Source: Candidatus Kapaibacterium sp. (lineage in GTDB: Bacteria > Bacteroidota > Ignavibacteria > Kapaibacteriales > NICIL-2). Taken from it: DNA of 43,182 nt. The stretch is taken from contig JANWWF010000011.1 in assembly GCA_025055755.1 (NCBI GenBank), positions 1 through 43,182 on the forward strand, in the 5' to 3' direction. Positions 3,989-39,414 of this stretch are shown one piece after another (position 1 is the first letter of the stretch; each line of letters opens with the position of its first letter). A program made the translations under genes and the position numbers. Below the pieces are notes generated by a model. It made no database searches, was not told where the DNA came from, and saw only the letters and a program-made list of their open reading frames with translations.

Positions 3989-3993
3989 CCACG

Positions 3994-4068
3994 GGCGGGC
4001 AACGGGACTCGAACCCGCGACCCCCAGAGCCACAATCTGGTGCTCTAACCAACTGAGCTATACCCGCC
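3994..4068 (-). tRNA. tRNA-His (GTG anticodon)
   Basis: The minus strand folds as a cloverleaf: acceptor stem with an encoded extra G at -1 opposite discriminator C73 (the histidyl-tRNA identity pair), D-arm AGCTCAGTTGGTTAGAGC, anticodon loop TTGTGGC with GTG in an intact CCAGA/TCTGG stem, and T-arm GCGGG-TTCGAGT-CCCGT. The 3' CCA is not encoded. It lies 23 bases downstream of a lipoprotein gene on the same strand but has its own -7 box at 4080-4087. Confidence 0.96.
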
Positions 4069-4079
4069 ATGCACCGATG

Positions 4080-4087
4080 CAAAAATA
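4080..4087 (-). promoter_or_regulatory. Promoter -7 box for tRNA-His
   Basis: Minus-strand TATTTTTG fits TAnnTTTG and ends 11 bases before the mature tRNA 5' end, which would give a transcript leader of only a few bases. No good -33 element is visible. Confidence 0.45.
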
Positions 4088-4091
4088 CGCA

Positions 4092-4769
4092 CTATCGCTG
4101 CAACGGTACTTCGCACAACATTGTGGCCCGGTGGCGACGGAAATCGCGACCGCCCGGCAGCTCCACAGGAGTAAAATGCTGAAGTACGATTCGGAACACT
4201 ACAGTCCGATGATCTGTCCGCCATGCCTTGATAGTGCAGAAAATAGAATCGTTGAGCTCAGGAGGGATGTTCGGTGAAGAGCGGACAATGCGCACTGGGC
4301 GATAAGCGATGAGTCCTCCCGCTTGTCTTTCGCGGAGGAATAACACCACTTGTCCCTGCAGGAGAGAAGTCTCCTGTCCAGTGAACCGGATCAGAGTGGT
4401 AGTGTCCACCTCAATGACCAGGCGGCGTAGAGAGAGTTCCATCGTATCACGCATCCGCTCGACTAATGGTATCATGCTAAGACGCAAGTAGAGCAACCGT
4501 CTCCGCAGCGTGTCAATGACAGCCCAACTGCTATCGCTAGCGCTGCCAAATGGAACAAAGGTCTTCGATGCAAAAGTGAGGGAGCATTCTTGTTCCTCCC
4601 CTTTTCCAAGGAGGCGGTTGCTGTACTCTCCTTCGACCAAGTGCTCAGGGCTGATCGGAAGGATCACTGGCTTGGGATTTTCAACGATTGGGTCGGTAAT
4701 ACCGCTGGGGTCGGCACAGCCAGCGATCCACATCATCCCAGCAGCGATAAGAACATAGTGTGCTTTCAT
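4092..4769 (-). CDS. Hypothetical lipoprotein of the sigma/anti-sigma operon
   Basis: A 225-residue protein with a lipoprotein signal peptide: MKAHYVLIAAGMMWIAGC, lipobox IAGC with acylated Cys near residue 18. The mature part begins with a Pro/acidic linker (DPIVENPKPVILPISPEH) and then has beta-rich sequence without a family I recognise; it has only two further Cys-containing segments (QECSLTF and SIFCTIK). The start at 4769 is chosen for the signal peptide; an upstream in-frame start would spoil it. It follows the anti-sigma-like barrel protein by 10 bases, and that gene follows an ECF sigma factor by 4 bases, so the three form an operon. A role as periplasmic or outer-membrane partner of that system is inference from position. 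Confidence 0.65.
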   Translation of the reverse strand: MKAHYVLIAAGMMWIAGCADPSGITDPIVENPKPVILPISPEHLVEGEYSNRLLGKGEEQECSLTFASKTFVPFGSASDSSWAVIDTLRRRLLYLRLSMIPLVERMRDTMELSLRRLVIEVDTTTLIRFTGQETSLLQGQVVLFLRERQAGGLIAYRPVRIVRSSPNIPPELNDSIFCTIKAWRTDHRTVVFRIVLQHFTPVELPGGRDFRRHRATMLCEVPLQR

Positions 4770-4779
4770 TGCTGCTTTT

Positions 4780-5937
4780 CTAAAAGCGAAACATGATGCC
4801 GTAGGTGATACCAACGTTCGGTGTCCAGTACGGCGTAGCTTGGTACACGTAGCGCATCAATGCACCTTCTACGCCAAGCAGAACGCCAACCGCCGTCGTT
4901 GGACGGTAAAGAACGCCTAGGCTCGAGCGCCCTAATAAGCCGAATTCCGTTGCACCAATACCGAGTTGCATAAATGGTTCCAGCTGCGGACTTAGCCGCA
5001 TGCGGTACTGGTAGGCAAATGTCCCCCATAGCAGGGCAGGATAGGCCTCGTAGCGCAGACGTGTATCTTCACGGTAGCCGTAAAACTGCATTGCAAACGG
5101 TTCTCTCCCTACCTCAATCCCAATGGCGTGGTGATCGCTAAGGGTATACAGAAGTCCTACTGCGCTGGTATTGAATGGAGAACTTCTGTCAGGTTGCTGG
5201 GGCACATTGATAAGCGAGGTAGTTCCCAAACCGCGTACAATCAGTCGGAATTGGGGATGGAGCTCGCTGGGGGAAAGAACAGGAGGCGATGGGCTTTCGA
5301 CAGCGAGAACGTCATTTTCCAGCCGAGGCGCTGGTTCGATGTAGCGAACAATTGTCGGAATGGGCATGTGTCGTACAACCGATGCTTCTGCCAGGGGAGA
5401 GAGAGGAGAGGGCAATTGCGCTTGTGCGGTCTCTGAGGGGGAGGAAAAAGGAGCCGATACGTCTCTATCTCCCCCCGGCGATGGCAGGTACACTGTCCGC
5501 GTCCGATACACAATTCGTTCGACAACGGTGGTTTCTGGCTTTACAACAGGGACAGACGTTGGTGGAAGAGCAGCCTGCTGTGGGAGCTCCTGCGGGGGAG
5601 TCCAGAGGATGCGTGCTGTTACTCCAAGCCAAGTGAGTACACCGCCTGCTATTGCACTGAGAGCAGGGAGCCAGAGCTTGTGGAGGAGACTCAATCCTGC
5701 CCCAATGCCGGCTCCAATGCCAAGGCTTTGGAAGACAGCTGCGGTTGCACTCATCGGGGGGATGAGCACAGCGCGGTCATGGTGTGCTGCCTGGCGCAGT
5801 GCAAGTAATTCGCGCAGTTCTTGACGAAGGTCAGCATTGCTGGCTAAGGCAGCAAATAATGGCTCTTCCAGTGATGCATCCAGTTCGCCATCAATGTACG
5901 CGGAGAGCCATTCTGAGTATTGCGCCGTGTAGTCCAT
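4780..5937 (-). CDS. Anti-sigma-like protein with C-terminal outer-membrane-type beta-barrel
   Basis: This 385-residue protein combines three parts. Residues 1-60 are a short charged helical region (YSEWLSAYIDGELDASLEE) like the N-termini of anti-sigma factors, without the zinc-binding His/Cys set. A hydrophobic stretch lies at about 72-108 (LWLPALSAIAGGVLTWLGV). Residues 110-225 are Pro/Ser/Thr/Val-rich, like a periplasm-spanning linker. From about 228 to the end the sequence alternates like a beta-barrel (LIVRGLGTTSLI, then AIGIEVGREPFAMQFYGY) and ends in GIMFRF, a C-terminal aromatic typical of outer-membrane proteins. Its start is 4 bases after the ECF sigma gene stop. Inference: a membrane-bound regulator of that sigma factor that may contact the outer membrane. 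Similar layouts occur in Bacteroidota genomes but are poorly described. Confidence 0.7.
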   Translation of the reverse strand: MDYTAQYSEWLSAYIDGELDASLEEPLFAALASNADLRQELRELLALRQAAHHDRAVLIPPMSATAAVFQSLGIGAGIGAGLSLLHKLWLPALSAIAGGVLTWLGVTARILWTPPQELPQQAALPPTSVPVVKPETTVVERIVYRTRTVYLPSPGGDRDVSAPFSSPSETAQAQLPSPLSPLAEASVVRHMPIPTIVRYIEPAPRLENDVLAVESPSPPVLSPSELHPQFRLIVRGLGTTSLINVPQQPDRSSPFNTSAVGLLYTLSDHHAIGIEVGREPFAMQFYGYREDTRLRYEAYPALLWGTFAYQYRMRLSPQLEPFMQLGIGATEFGLLGRSSLGVLYRPTTAVGVLLGVEGALMRYVYQATPYWTPNVGITYGIMFRF

Positions 5938-5941
5938 GATA

Positions 5942-6526
5942 CTATCGCTCCGTGTTCATGTCTTCTGTTCGATCGGAGAAGTAGGGGGCTAAGATTTTCC
6001 GGAGTTTCTGTCGTGCACGGAATGCACGGACCTTGATAACATCGGCACTTGTACCGGTCATTGCGCCGATTTCTGCATAGGAGAATCCTTCGTATTCGTG
6101 GAGGACGAACGCCTCGCGGTACTCCATAGGTAAAAGCTCCAATGCATGAGCAAGTAAGCTTGCTAATTCATTGTTCTCATAGGGGTGATCAGGAATAATA
6201 GCGTGAAAATCTTGGAGCTCCACAGTTGGGCGCTGCGATCGTTTCAAGTTGAGGCAGATGTTCCGAGCAATGCGCAGGAGATAGGCGGGGAGATTAGTCA
6301 TTGTGCGCTCTACATCGGCGGCTGTGTAGAAACGGACGAAGGTTTCCTGAAAAGCATCCTGAGCACTGGTATCGTCGCCGAGGATACGCCGGCAGTATGC
6401 ATACACGCGCGGCGAATAGCGGCGGTAGATTTCCGTAAAAGCAGCATCCCGCTCGCGTTTGGACGAAGCGGTGTTGCACATCTGCTGGTACAGCTCCGCA
6501 TCGCTACGGTGGTCCAGTTTATTCAT
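5942..6526 (-). CDS. ECF-type RNA polymerase sigma factor
   Basis: This ~194-residue protein has sigma region 2 (FTEIYRRYSPRVYAYCRRIL, then QDAFQETFVRFY, about residues 30-75) and region 4 with the DNA-binding helix-turn-helix (LPMEYREAFVLHEYEG followed by SYAEIGAMTGTSADVIKVR, about 130-175), and lacks regions 1 and 3, as in extracytoplasmic-function sigma factors. It would direct RNA polymerase to a stress- or envelope-dependent regulon. Start at 6526 (MNKLDHRSD) is chosen by family length; an in-frame ATG at 6553 is an alternative. It leads an operon with the anti-sigma-like barrel protein and a lipoprotein. The upstream 384-base region contains no gene. Confidence 0.93.
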   Translation of the reverse strand: MNKLDHRSDAELYQQMCNTASSKRERDAAFTEIYRRYSPRVYAYCRRILGDDTSAQDAFQETFVRFYTAADVERTMTNLPAYLLRIARNICLNLKRSQRPTVELQDFHAIIPDHPYENNELASLLAHALELLPMEYREAFVLHEYEGFSYAEIGAMTGTSADVIKVRAFRARQKLRKILAPYFSDRTEDMNTER

Positions 6527-6765
6527 TGAAACGACTACATAATCTGCCGGCAATAACCAAACTACTATTAAAAGGTAACATACGTGTGTATTGCACTCTG
6601 CATCGAAACAGAATCCAGATTAGGACGTTGCTGCATATAGCACGTACAAGACTGGTGCTGTTCCATAACGGACAGGGTCAATCGTGAATAGGCATTAGTA
6701 TGGGAGCTTGTCTTTCTAGAAGGTAGAGGGTAACGGCTCCATACACTGCTGTATTCCCCAGAGAA

Positions 6766-6874: not shown

Positions 6875-6910
6875 GACGCAGAGTTGTTTCACTTTGGGTT
6901 TGGTGCTAAT

Positions 6911-9169
6911 ATGCAAGGGTTCAACAGGTTCTCTCTTCTGGTAGCAATAGGAGGCATTCTGCTGCCGGGATTAGTAGTAGCAGGAGTCCCCAGCAAGCCT
7001 CGTGAATTCACAGCTAAAGGGCAATACACAAACACTCCTAATGTGTACCAGGCACTACTCCAATGGGCAGCAAGTCAATCCGAGAATGCTAACGATAGTC
7101 CCACAGGCTACTACATCTACCGTGCAACAGGGCAAACCGAAGACATGAGCCAATTTTCTCGGATTGCAACAGTGCCCAGCGATACTCAGCGCACATACGT
7201 GTACATTGATAGTCCTCTGTCGGCAGGAACGTACACCTACTTTCTAACCGCATACAATAACGATGGGGAAAGCCAGCGTACCCCCATCCGGGTTGTCGTT
7301 GTACCACCAAATACTCCACCGGATAATGTCCTTCGCTTTGTGACAGTGCCTCCCCCTCAAGGACGTGTCGGAGTGCAGTATCGCTATCAGGCACGAGCAG
7401 AAACATCGCTACAAGGAGTTACAATTCGCTATCAACTCCTCCAAGGTCCCGATGGAATGAGCATAGATGAAGAAAGTGGTTTAGTGACATGGGTCCCACA
7501 GCGTCCAGGCCGGTATGAGGTTAGTATCAAGGCGATTGTTCAATACCAAGGACAAGCCATTTCCGTTAGACAGGGATGGACGATAGTCGTTGAAGGAGAG
7601 GAAAATGAAGAAGGATGTATCGTTGTCGAAGGTGTTGTTCAGGATAGCAATGGTACGCGAATGACGGATGGTGTCGTTTATGCGTACCGCTCTGTAGCTC
7701 GAGAAAATCGAATCATCTGGATCGTCGCAGCGCGGGCAGAACTCAATCAACACGGAGTTTTCCGAATGCGTCTTCCTGCAGGACAATACAAGTTCTTCAC
7801 GGAAGGGCGGAGCCATCTGCCAAGCTGGTATGAACGCAGTCGTAATGCAGATAATGCAACAGTATTGACATTTGAGTGTGGCAGCGATTCAACGCGCGAA
7901 CTGGTTTTTATCGTGAGTCCACGCTCAGCAGAGCAGTTTTATGTTGTCAGCGGTCGCGTCACATCGCAACAGACAGGGGCTGGCGTTTCCGCATGGGTGA
8001 AGTTTAGTGCCTTTATCAATTACCACCGTGATGATGACTATCGTGGTGAGTGGGGAGGAACAGTCACTTTTACTGCTGAGACGAATGCAGATGGATACTT
8101 CGAAATACGTTTGTCCAATCGCTATACCTACATTGCACGAGCTATTCCTCGCAGTGAGGACTACCTTGCGCTCTACTACGACGGAACAACCAACATAGCT
8201 GAAGCAAAACGTATTACACTTACTGGCAATCTTGATGGAATCAACTTTGCACTTCCACTACGTCCTCCATTCCATGGTGGCTTTAGCGGGCAAATCGTTG
8301 ATAGTAGTGGCAGGGGAATAGCTGGTTGGGCAGTAGCATGTCGCCTCGTTGCGCAGGATAGTGATCGCCGGGAGCATATCCGGCGCTTCCGGACTGTAGA
8401 AACTGATTCAATGGGACACTATCAGTTTGTTGGACTCGAACCTGGGGTGTATGTTGTGCTCGGTATTCCTCGCTCGCGAGATTATGTGCCAGGATTCTGT
8501 GTACTGGGCGAAATGGCAGCACTTCGGTGGCGGAATGCAACGCGAATTGGAGTAGGGGAGGTGATGCTGACAGTTCAGTACGACATAAAACTCCGTGCTC
8601 GCAGTGGAGAGCGGGGAATGGTGCGGCTGGAAGGATGGATACGAGGGCGTACTGGACAGATGAAAAACAGTATGCGTGAGCAGGGGGATGTGCCTGTCGC
8701 AGGTGCATTAATCGCAGTCATTACTTCTTCAGGAATCGCTGGATATGCAGTGAGTCAAGATGATGGATACTATGCAATTACTGAATTGATACCGCTGACC
8801 GGTCAGCTGGTTGTGGATCATCCCGACTACGAATCAACCATTGTTCCGCTTACACTTGGTGTGGCCGCAGGCACTCAATCTCAGGATCTGACGGTGGAGC
8901 CGGTTATTCTGAATGTTGAAGAAAAGAGCATACCCAATCTTCGCCTCGTGCCAAATCCCGCGAGCACATATCTCCAGCTCGAACTTGGACACATGGTCGG
9001 CACAGTAAAGATTGAGCTCACTACATTGCTTGGCACAACCGTTGCGGTATATCAAACAGATACTCCGACGATTTCCATTGCGACCGATCAATTAGCCAGT
9101 GGCATCTATCTGGTGCGGATAATTTCTTCAGCGGGAGTGCAAACAGTTCCAGTCGCAATTATGCATTGA
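6911..9169 (+). CDS. Secreted multidomain protein with T9SS sorting domain
   Basis: A 752-residue exported protein. Residues 1-25 are a signal peptide (SLLVAIGGILLPGLVVAG). Next come a fibronectin type III-like domain (about 27-130, with SPTGYYIYRATG and GTYTYFLTAYNNDG), a putative Ig/cadherin-like domain (about 137-235, ending in LVTWVPQRPGRYEVSI), then several carboxypeptidase-regulatory-like beta-sandwich units (for example GHYQFVGLEPGVYVVLG and GYYAITELIPLTGQLVV). The C-terminus (about 675-752, LRLVPNPASTYLQLEL ... LASGIYLVRIIS) is a type IX secretion sorting domain, so the protein should cross the outer membrane and be anchored or released. The only in-frame ATG near the beginning is 6911. 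No catalytic domain is recognisable; an adhesive or structural surface role is inferred. A hairpin terminator follows at 9201. Confidence 0.85.
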   Translation: MQGFNRFSLLVAIGGILLPGLVVAGVPSKPREFTAKGQYTNTPNVYQALLQWAASQSENANDSPTGYYIYRATGQTEDMSQFSRIATVPSDTQRTYVYIDSPLSAGTYTYFLTAYNNDGESQRTPIRVVVVPPNTPPDNVLRFVTVPPPQGRVGVQYRYQARAETSLQGVTIRYQLLQGPDGMSIDEESGLVTWVPQRPGRYEVSIKAIVQYQGQAISVRQGWTIVVEGEENEEGCIVVEGVVQDSNGTRMTDGVVYAYRSVARENRIIWIVAARAELNQHGVFRMRLPAGQYKFFTEGRSHLPSWYERSRNADNATVLTFECGSDSTRELVFIVSPRSAEQFYVVSGRVTSQQTGAGVSAWVKFSAFINYHRDDDYRGEWGGTVTFTAETNADGYFEIRLSNRYTYIARAIPRSEDYLALYYDGTTNIAEAKRITLTGNLDGINFALPLRPPFHGGFSGQIVDSSGRGIAGWAVACRLVAQDSDRREHIRRFRTVETDSMGHYQFVGLEPGVYVVLGIPRSRDYVPGFCVLGEMAALRWRNATRIGVGEVMLTVQYDIKLRARSGERGMVRLEGWIRGRTGQMKNSMREQGDVPVAGALIAVITSSGIAGYAVSQDDGYYAITELIPLTGQLVVDHPDYESTIVPLTLGVAAGTQSQDLTVEPVILNVEEKSIPNLRLVPNPASTYLQLELGHMVGTVKIELTTLLGTTVAVYQTDTPTISIATDQLASGIYLVRIISSAGVQTVPVAIMH

Positions 9170-10316: not shown

Positions 10317-10420
10317 TGGTCTCTACTAGTTGTGCGCAAAAGCGAAGATAGAATGGCGTTTGGTTTTTTCGCTTGCGGTTTTGTAAATAGCACTTGGTTT
10401 CATTTTCCCAAGCAGTGCCT

Positions 10421-13255
10421 ATGTGGCGATATGGTGCTGTCGTGCTCCTTGGATGTGTGCTCTGGGCAGATCATCCACGGTGGGAACGGTACCTTGAAGC
10501 AGCACGCCCGACGGCGATTACTTCCAAGCCTCTTTTCCCTCCCTTTCTGCTTGCTGAGCGCGTGTTTGAGACTCCCTTTGCAAACATCAACCTCATTGAG
10601 CCAGAGCAGGATAATTCACCGATGCAGAACGAATCAAGCATAGCAGTCAATCCGCGAAATCCTCAGCAGCTAATCGCTTCGGCAGTGGACTATCGGGCCA
10701 ACCAATCTGCCTGGGTGTACGTTTCTACCGATGGGGGCAAAACCTGGCGAAATGTCAATCTTGGTAAGCCTAATTTCCCTCGCTGGACGGCAGGCAATGA
10801 CCCATCGGTAGCGTGGGGACCTGATGGCACTGCGTATGTGGTGTATGGTGCATTCGATCGTTCTTCTCCTCCGACGGGAGAAAACGCCGTGCTGCTTGCC
10901 CGTTCCACCGATGGAGGACAAACCTGGCAAGCGCATCTACCAATCATCCTTCATCGTGGGGTGATGACAGCGGATTCAGCCTTCGAAGACAAATACTACA
11001 TTTCGGTCGATCACAGCTCGACATCTCCCTATCGCGGTAGGCTGTATGTGCCATGGAAGCGCGTGATTGACCGGGATTCATCAACGCAGATTGTCGTCAC
11101 CTGGTCCGACGATCGCGGAACGACCTGGCACGAGCCTGTGCGTGTCAGTCCCGTCTTACCGGGTACGTCGCTTGATACCACATTTGGGCAAAGCTTTCCA
11201 CTTGCGGCAACTGGTCCTAATGGCGAAGTGTACGTGGTGTGGAACTCCGGCACGCAGCGCAGCATAGGCTTTGCCCGTTCCACCGATGGAGGGAGGACAT
11301 GGTCTGCACCGCGATTGATACACACCTACCAGTGGCTCGGGCAGACACGCTTTACAGGGACGCAATACAATCACACTCTCAAGGGTGGAACCCGTGCAGA
11401 AACCTATCCTGCATTGGTGGTGGACACAGTCCCTGGCTCGCCGCGACGAGGATGGCTCTACTTGACTTGGGCTGCTGACCCTGTGCCCAACGTGTACTTT
11501 TCGCGCTCGACCGATGGAGGACAAACATGGTCAACCCCACGGATTATTCACCGTGACACTACCAATGACCAGTTCTGGCAATGGATTGCCCTTGATGGAA
11601 CCAGCGGCGATCTCGCTGTTATGTGGTTGGATAGCCGCGACGACCCGGACAACCGCTACTCGCGCGTGTACGTTGCCTATTCGAGTGACGGCGGGGATAC
11701 GTGGCTAGAGCGTCCGGTGACTGATACCGCCTTCGATATTCGCCGCAATCCATTCACTGGTGGTGGCATCACTGGCGTTTTTGCAGGGGACTACAACGGC
11801 TGTGCATTCTGGAATGGGATCATTTATCCTTCAAGCGTGGACATGCGCAATGCGGAAGTGAACATCTTCGACAGCGACGTGTACTCTGCTCGCATAAGCG
11901 TTCGCGCTCCAGAGCCGGTTCGCGCATTCCGTGCGCAGACGGTTCCCAGCGATCCGCGTCGCATAGAGCTTTCATGGCAACCACCGCGTCAGCGGAGTTT
12001 TGGCCAGCCGCTATCACCAGGTGAAGTGGTGCTTTCGTTGTATCGGAACGATACGCTCATAGCTCAGCTTCCTGGCACTGCGACGGCGTACATCGATGCA
12101 AATCTGCCGCCATACTCGGTGCATCGCTACGCAATACTGGCAGTTGCAGGAAGGGATACCTCATCACCACGGACAGCGTTTGGATATGCGGGAGGAGCGC
12201 GGCAGCCTGCTCCACCTCAGCTTGTTGAAGTGCGCAACGAGCGCTCCACCCGCAATGATGCAACAATCGTTGCGACGCTGCCGACGCAACGTGCCGATGG
12301 AGCAACGCCCCTGGTCAACTTAGCCCGCGTTGCGGTACTCTTGGACGGAATGGAGCACAGCCTACACACTGTGTCCTCAAGCGATACGGGGCAGACTGTT
12401 GAGCTTGCAGTTACTGCTCCTGAGCGAGGCTATTGGCGTGTACAGCTGTGTGTGCTTGACAGCGATGGCAATCGAAGCGACACCACCACTCCAGTGGTGA
12501 CATACATCGGTCCAGTAGAATCTCGCTACAGCGATAGTTTCGATGAACCACGTCTGCGCCGCTATTGGACGAGGGGAGGATGGGGACTTACCGATGAGTT
12601 CTCATTCTCTGCACCCAACAGCCTGACCGAATCACCTCAGCGCCAATACTCGGCTTCAGCACGTGATACGCTGCTGCTTTTCCCCATCCGAGCGGAACGG
12701 GATACCTTGCTGGTGGCGTTCTACACTGCAGCGTTTGTCGAGGAGCGCGATAGTGCCCTTGTCGAATACACAACCGACGGTAGTCAATGGCAACGCGCGC
12801 TTGCGTTCAATCGCGCGCAATATCCAGAGTGGACCGATGGAGTTCGCTCTGCAACAGATTGGAAGTTTGCCTCCGTCGCAATTCCAGTCGCAAATCCACC
12901 GGTGGATGTAACGCTGCGCTTCCGCTTCCGTTCGAACCTTAGTGGACAGGACGACGGCTGGTACATTGACGACCTAACTATCAGCGGCGCTGCGCAGACG
13001 AGCGCTGATGAATCGTCGGCAGCGGTGACACTATTCCCCAATCCGGCGACAGGTGTTGCTATCGTCGAGGGCATTGCGCCGACTGCGCAGGTGACTGTCG
13101 TCGCCCTCAGCGGGCAGCAATGGAGCGTGCCTGTTGAACCTGTGGCGTCAGGCTTAGCGCTCGACCTTCGCCCGCTACCACGCGGCACGTATTTCGTTCG
13201 TCTCTATGACGGCATGCGCATCCATGTTCTGCGGTGCGTGCGCATTGACCCATAG
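10421..13255 (+). CDS. Secreted BNR/Asp-box repeat protein with T9SS sorting domain
   Basis: A 944-residue exported protein with a short signal peptide (MWRYGAVVLLGCVLW). Residues ~60-480 hold a sialidase-type beta-propeller: six Asp-boxes of the S-x-D-x-G-x-T-W kind are visible at about residues 100, 160, 227, 286, 361 and 420 (for example STDGGKTW, SDDRGTTW, SSDGGDTW). A fibronectin type III-like domain follows (PVRAFRAQTVPSDPRRIELSWQPP begins it), then a jelly-roll-like region (DGWYIDDLTISG) and a T9SS sorting domain (VTLFPNPATGVAIVEG ... LPRGTYFVRLYDG). The catalytic Arg triad, Tyr and Asp of true sialidases were not identified, so an enzymatic role is not claimed; glycan binding or surface structure is possible. 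nadA starts 21 bases later on the same strand. Confidence 0.85.
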   Translation: MWRYGAVVLLGCVLWADHPRWERYLEAARPTAITSKPLFPPFLLAERVFETPFANINLIEPEQDNSPMQNESSIAVNPRNPQQLIASAVDYRANQSAWVYVSTDGGKTWRNVNLGKPNFPRWTAGNDPSVAWGPDGTAYVVYGAFDRSSPPTGENAVLLARSTDGGQTWQAHLPIILHRGVMTADSAFEDKYYISVDHSSTSPYRGRLYVPWKRVIDRDSSTQIVVTWSDDRGTTWHEPVRVSPVLPGTSLDTTFGQSFPLAATGPNGEVYVVWNSGTQRSIGFARSTDGGRTWSAPRLIHTYQWLGQTRFTGTQYNHTLKGGTRAETYPALVVDTVPGSPRRGWLYLTWAADPVPNVYFSRSTDGGQTWSTPRIIHRDTTNDQFWQWIALDGTSGDLAVMWLDSRDDPDNRYSRVYVAYSSDGGDTWLERPVTDTAFDIRRNPFTGGGITGVFAGDYNGCAFWNGIIYPSSVDMRNAEVNIFDSDVYSARISVRAPEPVRAFRAQTVPSDPRRIELSWQPPRQRSFGQPLSPGEVVLSLYRNDTLIAQLPGTATAYIDANLPPYSVHRYAILAVAGRDTSSPRTAFGYAGGARQPAPPQLVEVRNERSTRNDATIVATLPTQRADGATPLVNLARVAVLLDGMEHSLHTVSSSDTGQTVELAVTAPERGYWRVQLCVLDSDGNRSDTTTPVVTYIGPVESRYSDSFDEPRLRRYWTRGGWGLTDEFSFSAPNSLTESPQRQYSASARDTLLLFPIRAERDTLLVAFYTAAFVEERDSALVEYTTDGSQWQRALAFNRAQYPEWTDGVRSATDWKFASVAIPVANPPVDVTLRFRFRSNLSGQDDGWYIDDLTISGAAQTSADESSAAVTLFPNPATGVAIVEGIAPTAQVTVVALSGQQWSVPVEPVASGLALDLRPLPRGTYFVRLYDGMRIHVLRCVRIDP

Positions 13256-37891: not shown

Positions 37892-38725
37892 TTACGGTTG
37901 ATGCTGGACATTTTCTGATTCGACAGCAGAAGAAACTTCGCAGACAGTGGTGCTTGCAATGTGATGAAGAAGTTCCACCTGTTCCTGGGAAAGTGGTTGC
38001 ACTTCCCGAGAAAGATTCGCAAGAACGATTTCAACATCTTGGAGAACTTTCTGCACTTTTGGGTCATGATGGAGCATTGGGCGTAGTCGCTGTGCCTCTT
38101 TGAGTAATTCGCGGGCAAATTGTCGGTGGTCAACTTGGTGCTCGATCGGAATACACCGTTTGCACGCAAGTTGTCTATCTGCTGTTGTCGCAATGTACAG
38201 CTGCGAGCGTTTCAGAAAATTTCGCAAGTGTTCTGTCGTTGCGCTGCTTGCGACGGCAGCAGTAGGAGGTGGCGTATCCCATGGCAGTGCCAATGGGAAA
38301 GCTTGACTCCCGGCGTCATTTTTGGTAGTGGACAACAAGGAACGTGTCCCAAGAGTGAATCCTCCAATGAAGGCCAGCACTATGCTCCCCAGCGCAAGCG
38401 CAACCCGCACAGGAATAAGGTGACCGATAATTTTTCCAATGCTCTGTCTCTGTCGTATCCTTACATGTTGACGGCGTTTTTCTTGCCGAATACGGTGGAG
38501 AATGCTATGCTCGAGTCCTTGCCAGTAGTCTTCACTTTCTGGGGGGGGAAGCTGGCCAATTTGCGGATCTGCGATTGTGTCCAACATGGTGCAAAGGGTG
38601 CGATAACGCTCTGCCTGTTCGGGATTTTTGGCCTGTTGGGACTCAAAGCGAGCACGTTCACGTTTGGAAAGCTCTCCGTAGTATGCCAGCACCATCAATT
38701 TGGTGATGCGGTTGCAATTTTTCAT
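37892..38725 (-). CDS. Membrane anti-sigma factor-like protein
   Basis: A 277-residue protein, not matched to a named family but typical of anti-sigma factors: a helical cytoplasmic region (residues 1-95, with ITKLMVLAYYGELSKRERARF), one membrane helix (about 106-127, VRVALALGSIVLAFIGGFTLG) and a helical periplasmic region. The periplasmic part holds Cys188 and Cys191 in a CxxC arrangement (LACKRCIP) followed by His196 and His200, a possible metal or redox site. No zinc-finger HxxxCxxC is present in the cytoplasmic part. It begins 27 bases after the ECF sigma gene and precedes a DUF1573 protein, so it most likely holds that sigma factor at the membrane; this is inference from layout. Confidence 0.75.
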   Translation of the reverse strand: MKNCNRITKLMVLAYYGELSKRERARFESQQAKNPEQAERYRTLCTMLDTIADPQIGQLPPPESEDYWQGLEHSILHRIRQEKRRQHVRIRQRQSIGKIIGHLIPVRVALALGSIVLAFIGGFTLGTRSLLSTTKNDAGSQAFPLALPWDTPPPTAAVASSATTEHLRNFLKRSQLYIATTADRQLACKRCIPIEHQVDHRQFARELLKEAQRLRPMLHHDPKVQKVLQDVEIVLANLSREVQPLSQEQVELLHHIASTTVCEVSSAVESENVQHQP

Positions 38726-38752
38726 GCAGCAGGGTCGGAGATGGTGGAACCG

Positions 38753-39355
38753 TCAGCGCGATGCGGCATTGTTGTCACGATAGAACGAAAGAAGCTTTTG
38801 CAAATTGCGCACTGCACGAAACAGAAGCACTTTTACCGTGCCTTCGGTGTTATTCATGCGCTCGGCGATTTCTCGGATCGAGAGGTCGTAGTAGTGGCGC
38901 AGAATAAACGCTGTGCGCTGAGCCGGGCTAAGCTTTGTTAGTGCTTCATCGACGTGCTGGCGCAATTGCTCTATGAATAGTTCATGCTCAGGGTCATATT
39001 CTGCGCTCTGAGTACCGCTCATTACCTCTTCATCGAAGGAATCCCATTGCTTTCGAGCGATGTATTCCTTCGAGCGTGCAATGTTCAGATAAAGATTTAC
39101 TGTAATTCGGTGAAGCCACGTGCTCAGACGCGCATCGCCACGGAAGCTATCCAGGCTTTTCCATGCACGGATGAAGACTTCCTGGGTCAAATCCTCTGCA
39201 TCGTCGTGATCGCGACATAGTTGCAAGGCTAAATGGTACACCTCGCGCTTATAGGTGCGTACGATATCTTCGATGACGGTCGGGTCCTTGGCTAAGACCC
39301 GCTCGACCAATTGACGGTCGAGCTCAATCACTGCTGCAGAGGAACGCATCGGCAT
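38753..39355 (-). CDS. ECF-type RNA polymerase sigma factor
   Basis: An approximately 200-residue sigma factor with region 2 (IVRTYKREVYHLALQLC, then DAEDLTQEVFIRAWKSL and ARLSTWLHRITVNLYLN, residues ~30-100) and region 4 (LTKLSPAQRTAFILRHYYD, then SIREIAERMNNTEGTVKV, ~135-190). No regions 1.1 or 3 are present, as in ECF group members near SigW/RpoE types. The start at 39355 is the first ATG that fits; ATG 39349 and an upstream GTG are alternatives. A -7 box lies at 39415-39422. It leads an operon with a membrane anti-sigma factor-like protein and DUF1573 protein, ending at the strong terminator at 36991. Confidence 0.93.
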   Translation of the reverse strand: MPMRSSAAVIELDRQLVERVLAKDPTVIEDIVRTYKREVYHLALQLCRDHDDAEDLTQEVFIRAWKSLDSFRGDARLSTWLHRITVNLYLNIARSKEYIARKQWDSFDEEVMSGTQSAEYDPEHELFIEQLRQHVDEALTKLSPAQRTAFILRHYYDLSIREIAERMNNTEGTVKVLLFRAVRNLQKLLSFYRDNNAASR

Positions 39356-39414
39356 AGACACCAAAAAGAAGGCAAGCGTTGACACTACGCAATAAGCTCT
39401 TCTACCCGCCCCTG

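Follow-up and report, generated by a model that had tools for sequence, protein, structure and literature searches.

A putative RseA-type anti-sigma factor of Kapabacteria with a predicted outer-membrane barrel on the same chain

Gene content of the locus

The window (the whole stretch of DNA analysed, 43,182 nucleotides of contig JANWWF010000011.1) comes from a Candidatus Kapaibacterium sp. genome of 2.33 Mb that is 99% complete; NCBI taxonomy gives Kapaibacteriota as a synonym of taxid 976, Bacteroidota. The window contains a row of three genes on the minus strand, preceded by a conserved block and followed by a tRNA gene:

6550..6579, minus strand: GTTAC-N9-GTAGTTTGGTTATTGC, a promoter-like block ahead of the sigma gene
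6526-5942, minus strand: ECF sigma factor gene, 194 aa, putative regulated partner
5937-4780, minus strand: whole gene (open reading frame) of the predicted dual-membrane anti-sigma factor, 385 aa
5767..5937, minus strand: predicted class I (RseA/RsiW-like) three-helix part, residues ~1-57, without zinc motif
5602..5745, minus strand: residues 65-112, predicted fourth helix that continues as the transmembrane segment
5251..5601, minus strand: Pro/Ser/Thr/Ala-rich, disordered, predicted periplasmic linker, residues 113-229
4783..5250, minus strand: predicted 8-stranded outer-membrane beta-barrel, residues 230-385, with a C-terminal F
4769-4092, minus strand: putative lipoprotein gene, 225 aa, third in the operon
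3993-4067: tRNA-His, after the three-gene row

The tightly spaced arrangement given in the preliminary description was recovered with every feature in its place on the minus strand, only 4 bases separating the sigma gene from the 385-aa reading frame and 10 bases separating the latter from the lipoprotein gene. The product of the first gene matches Sigma70_r2 (E 5e-16) and r4_2 (E 2.5e-14), both above cut-off, and its PDB matches are SigE, SigW, SigH and RpoE. The third gene begins with a lipobox-like stretch (MKAHYVLIAAGMMWIAGC), and a homologue lies directly downstream in all members of the genus that have the region, while none was found outside the genus among the loci at hand. As its product finds no match in Pfam, even at E 1, an assignment as NigD-like was dropped.

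The block upstream of the sigma gene is conserved within the genus: GTAGTTT-GTTATTGC is kept in 5/5 aligned members and preceded, at a distance of 9-10 bases, by GTTAC or GTAAC, which suggests that the sigma factor may direct transcription of its own operon. No second exact copy exists in the genome, and a regulon could not be derived from the block, the only exact match being that of the operon itself and matches with three mismatches being as numerous (40) as those of a reversed-pattern control (39). Divergent from the sigma operon, a large protein (6884-9169, plus strand) carries carboxypeptidase-regulatory-like repeats and matches a type IX secretion C-terminal sorting domain; a second large protein with BNR repeats (10394-13255, plus strand) matches such a domain below cut-off (E 0.003).

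The N-terminal anti-sigma-like domain

Searched alone against Pfam, the 385-aa protein matches RseA_N (E 0.011) and zf-HC2 (E 0.013) weakly and falls short of both curated cut-offs (16.8 bits vs 24 and 16.1 vs 22.2, respectively), so that it cannot be named from single-sequence searches of Pfam or NCBIfam, where nothing lies above cut-off. A profile of the N-terminal part built from 19 family members is more informative: among 177,635 PDB sequences its best three matches were RseA (1or7_C, E 0.014), RsiW (5wuq_C, E 0.054) and DdvA (8rlz_A, E 0.36), all of which are anti-sigma factors. AlphaFold places helices at residues 3-15, 21-33, 35-52 and 65-112, and the model thus presents the three-helix bundle and the fourth helix of a class I anti-sigma domain (ASDI), the fourth at low confidence.

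The putative contact with the sigma factor is conserved on both sides. Acidic residue 16 of helix 1 is D or E in 30/30 family members, and the second arginine of the FRAR motif in sigma region 4, which we take to be the equivalent of R178 of RpoE, is R or K in 34/34 sigma factors. The counterpart of residue 16 in RseA, D11, makes contact with a region 4 arginine of the sigma factor (PMC7406223). The window protein has no zinc motif, and class I anti-sigma domains are known both with and without zinc (PMC7406223). The N-terminus had been called anti-sigma-like, and the resemblance of its profile to RseA and RsiW bears this out; judged by sequence, this end of the protein is an RseA/RsiW-like class I anti-sigma domain, which would bind the neighbouring sigma factor.

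Transmembrane helix and linker

The fourth helix runs into the hydrophobic segment noted in the preliminary description; the segment is kept as a helix across the family, the AlphaFold model being of low confidence before residue 86. It is followed by a linker of ~116 residues with pLDDT <50 over residues 113-228. With limits set by a simple rule, linkers in the family measure 72-194 residues (median 143) and are rich in A, S, P and T, and in the alignment they form the most variable part of the protein. An extended chain covers up to ~0.35 nm per residue, hence ~40 nm for this linker, which is enough for the periplasm. Being predicted as disordered and long enough, the linker could thus cross this compartment as initially suggested.

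One patch of the linker, ERIVYRTRTVY (5488-5521, minus strand), departs from this variability and is strongly kept in the genus. VYRD-like patches resembling it occur in some other family members, and one homologue (locus L015) carries several repeats of it. The patch could be a protease site, a contact with peptidoglycan or a strand.

The predicted C-terminal beta-barrel

The AlphaFold model of the full-length protein, which was computed from six input sequences and whose barrel region has a pLDDT of ~65-86 (the other models of the five being much poorer), shows exactly eight strands in the C-terminal part; when residues 217-385 were modelled separately, the mean pLDDT was 67.7 and the pTM 0.59. 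In Foldseek the best PDB matches are outer-membrane barrels with OmpA first (E 1.6e-6), and the matches at E <= 0.001 are outer-membrane or designed membrane barrels. A second structure comparison gave OmpA a VIA Z of 8.5 over 112 residues at 2.8 A, which is near what common arrangements give. Independent of any fold match is the alternation of hydropathy along the strands: using column-averaged family hydropathy and strand limits taken from the model, the dyad contrast of the eight strands is 2.03; shuffling the residues of each strand gives 1.02 +/- 0.26, and 0/5000 shuffles reached as high a value. The protein ends in ...GIMFRF, and of 50 copies 29 have F as last residue and another 16 have L, W, Y or I (45/50 altogether). 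The predicted domain has the eight amphipathic strands, the closure and the C-terminal aromatic residue of an OmpA-like barrel, at moderate model confidence.

If the domain were instead a soluble beta-sandwich or a periplasmic barrel, the protein would be an anti-sigma factor of the ordinary kind, with its anchor in the inner membrane and its sensor in the periplasm. The little alternation that strands 270-285 and 295-312 show when the window protein is taken alone, and the appearance of avidins (soluble barrels) low in the structure list, would agree with this. We nevertheless consider it very improbable, because the alternation is clear at the family level, outer-membrane barrels lead the structural matches and the aromatic or hydrophobic C-terminal end is typical of barrels handled by BAM. 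A soluble sandwich in particular was rejected on the structure matches and the alternation, within the moderate confidence of the model. The barrel anticipated in the preliminary description was thus recovered by structure prediction, and the computations support a predicted membrane beta-barrel at the C-terminus.

Distribution and pairing with ECF sigma factors

In a single-protein search, homologues were found in 61/61 genomes of the order (Kapabacteria), with 1-37 copies each. Orthologues beside ECF genes proved to be full-length and of the same architecture across the order, with the ECF gene immediately upstream in all informative loci of a first set and in 28/29 loci of a second, which comprises multi-copy genomes and, through two collections, also the four genus members already in the first set. 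An architecture that is present order-wide and has, with a single exception among the informative cases, an ECF gene upstream reflects more than chance. The source genome itself holds three pairs of ECF and anti-sigma-barrel genes among 12 matches to sigma region 2. The largest number of copies occurs in a 7.9-Mb genome of the order (G022), where 37 matches to the 385-aa protein were found; those checked are on different contigs and nearly all have an ECF gene of their own.

A further ECF sigma gene in the window (39385-38753) precedes the gene of a 277-aa protein (together 37892-39385, minus strand) that matches zf-HC2 weakly, has a single hydrophobic segment and lacks a barrel. This is an ordinary sigma/anti-sigma pair, and it offers an internal contrast to the barrel-bearing protein.

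Two loci in relatives (L120:1877-4289 and L121:1-2633) have three genes in succession, for a sigma factor, an anti-sigma factor and, encoded on its own, an OMP_b-brl_2 barrel with a signal peptide, and a third (L112:536-2818) is similar, with a short anti-sigma reading frame in between. These rows look as if the fused protein had been split or had not yet been fused. Even as separate genes, sigma, anti-sigma and barrel stand side by side, which ties the barrel to the sigma system and allows for a joining of the parts more than once.

A predicted bridge between the two membranes

The layout of the domains, the fold class at either end, the pairing of the genes and the conservation throughout the lineage, all of them supported by computation, make it highly probable that a single chain combines a cytoplasmic end that holds the sigma factor, a helix in the inner membrane, a linker across the periplasm and a barrel in the outer membrane. 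We infer the following course of events. The N-terminal helices would bind the neighbouring ECF sigma factor and keep it inactive in the cytoplasm, while the single helix would anchor the chain in the inner membrane and the disordered linker would cross the periplasm. The small barrel would be placed into the outer membrane by Omp85 machinery, giving the protein its topology across both membranes. A change in the outer membrane, as the signal, would be relayed along the chain, and the sigma factor would be released by proteolysis, possibly through a site-2-type protease. The genome encodes Omp85 proteins as well as a site-2-type protease (PF02163).

The same parts could also work apart from each other, if the chain were cut soon after synthesis into an inner-membrane anti-sigma fragment and a free barrel whose fate, assembled or not, would serve as the signal, no permanent bridge being formed. 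The relatives with anti-sigma and barrel encoded by separate adjacent genes, the high variability of the linker and the presence of site-2-type proteases are all compatible with such early cleavage. It appears unlikely, however, as the two parts are fused in nearly all copies throughout the order and the linkers stay within a range of lengths that fits the distance to be crossed in the periplasm; moreover, a spanning chain has been described in the work on the Dma (dual membrane-spanning anti-sigma) proteins of Bacteroides thetaiotaomicron (PMC13088901).

Relationship to the Dma proteins

The statement in the preliminary description that no worked-out mechanism was known for such layouts is not supported, since the same layout has been published as the Dma family with genetic evidence of sigma repression (PMC13088901; PMC9308784). 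In B. thetaiotaomicron two pairs are known, Dma1-Das1 and Dma2-Das2, in which the Dma genes adjoin ECF21 sigma genes; loss of Dma leads to more vesicle production in a sigma-dependent manner, and Dma2 consists of the same four parts and has a phenotype that requires its sigma factor (PMC13088901). A protein of the same layout in Phocaeicola vulgatus, M0N98_03760, responds to toxin and envelope stress (PMC9308784). The 385-aa protein has both the order of parts of Dma and the adjoining ECF sigma gene. We regard it as an RseA-type variant of the Dma design, the design itself being already known, and this variant was possibly assembled independently.

Bacteroidia-type proteins of the same layout adjoin ECF genes in other genomes of the phylum, and their N-termini carry a PPxxxW motif. 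When the N-terminal profiles were compared with hhalign, the Kapabacteria type and the PPxxxW type scored 2.0%, hence no detectable homology of their anti-sigma domains, whereas the Kapabacteria N-terminus reached 98.6% against a genome of another order of the same class (G179) and 99.3% against short anti-sigma factors of the phylum, and split-half controls within each type gave 98.8-100%. Dma1 and Dma2 of B. thetaiotaomicron, whose own sequences lie outside this comparison, are assumed to be of the PPxxxW type from their layout and taxonomy. A profile of the Bacteroidia type matched nothing in the genomes of the order. Homology between the barrels could not be established either, the similarity being weak and confined to 48 columns (hhalign 48.8%). 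In the sigma factor tree, the factors beside the PPxxxW type form a group of their own with 100% support, and those of the Kapabacteria type group with the partners of short RseA-type anti-sigma factors. An AU test of a joint clade of the two sigma groups gave p 0.0195 with long branches and 0.369 without them, and because of this difference the sigma tree does not settle a separate origin.

The comparison of N-terminal domains favours a separate origin. There would seem to be about an even chance that a bridge in one chain arose at least twice, in Kapabacteria from an RseA-type domain and a small barrel and in Bacteroidia from another anti-sigma domain, and that in Kapabacteria such proteins became the main outer-membrane sensing switches of the order, with up to 37 copies per genome and a sigma factor for each. 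Descent from an ancestor shared with the Bacteroides Dma proteins, with an N-terminal domain diverged past recognition, is a more tentative reading. The identical order of parts, the pairing with ECF factors in both lineages, the single clade allowed by the AU test without long branches and the weak barrel similarity would be in line with it; the 2.0% score of the N-terminal profiles beside controls of 98.6-100%, the fully supported group of the Bacteroidia sigma factors and the absence of matches to the Bacteroidia profile throughout the order speak against it. In G179, three loci (L122-L124) encode proteins of 491-599 aa with RseA-type N-termini, the C-termini of which show no recognisable similarity to the barrel of the Kapabacteria type (hhalign 3%); these are possibly another barrel fusion.

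Comparison with known systems

With the RseA-RpoE pair of E. coli (PDB 1OR7) the system shares a zinc-free three-helix bundle, an acidic residue facing a basic partner in sigma region 4 and one transmembrane helix. RseA has a small periplasmic domain, and barrels are sensed via DegS and RseB, whereas here the barrel is carried by the anti-sigma chain itself. The likeness to signalling through FecR and TonB-dependent receptors lies in the relay of outer-membrane state to an ECF sigma factor, but that route needs three proteins, and a FecR relay was rejected here as the genome contains no match to FecR, in agreement with the earlier proposal of a system that does without a TonB receptor/FecR pair.

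Closer are the P. vulgatus pair M0N98_03760/03761 and the ECF/anti-sigma pair for oxidative stress of B. fragilis, in which the anti-sigma factor is likewise predicted to span the periplasm, ends in an outer-membrane barrel and is encoded 3' of the sigma gene, and in which its loss activates the sigma factor (PMC9308784). They differ in organism and in inducing signal (toxin and envelope stress), and are compared here by their published description.

The system bears on how outer-membrane state is relayed to transcription within a single polypeptide, including the signal and the step of cleavage or pulling in Dma. In the Kapabacteria proteins the RseA-like end is of a well understood kind, so that RseA biochemistry (sigma binding, site-2 cleavage) is directly transferable, and the dozens of paired examples per genome lend themselves to co-evolution analysis of the barrel loops (signal) and of the sigma pair (output). 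With Dma the window protein has in common the N-terminal anti-sigma domain, the one transmembrane helix, the long disordered tether, the C-terminal beta-barrel and the adjoining ECF gene. It differs in that its N-terminus is RseA/RsiW-like, whereas the Bacteroidia proteins of this layout that were examined are of the PPxxxW type, in that the sigma factors fall into separate groups of the tree and in that up to 37 copies occur per genome. What is new beyond Dma is thus the RseA-type end, the multiplication throughout an order and a possible independent origin.
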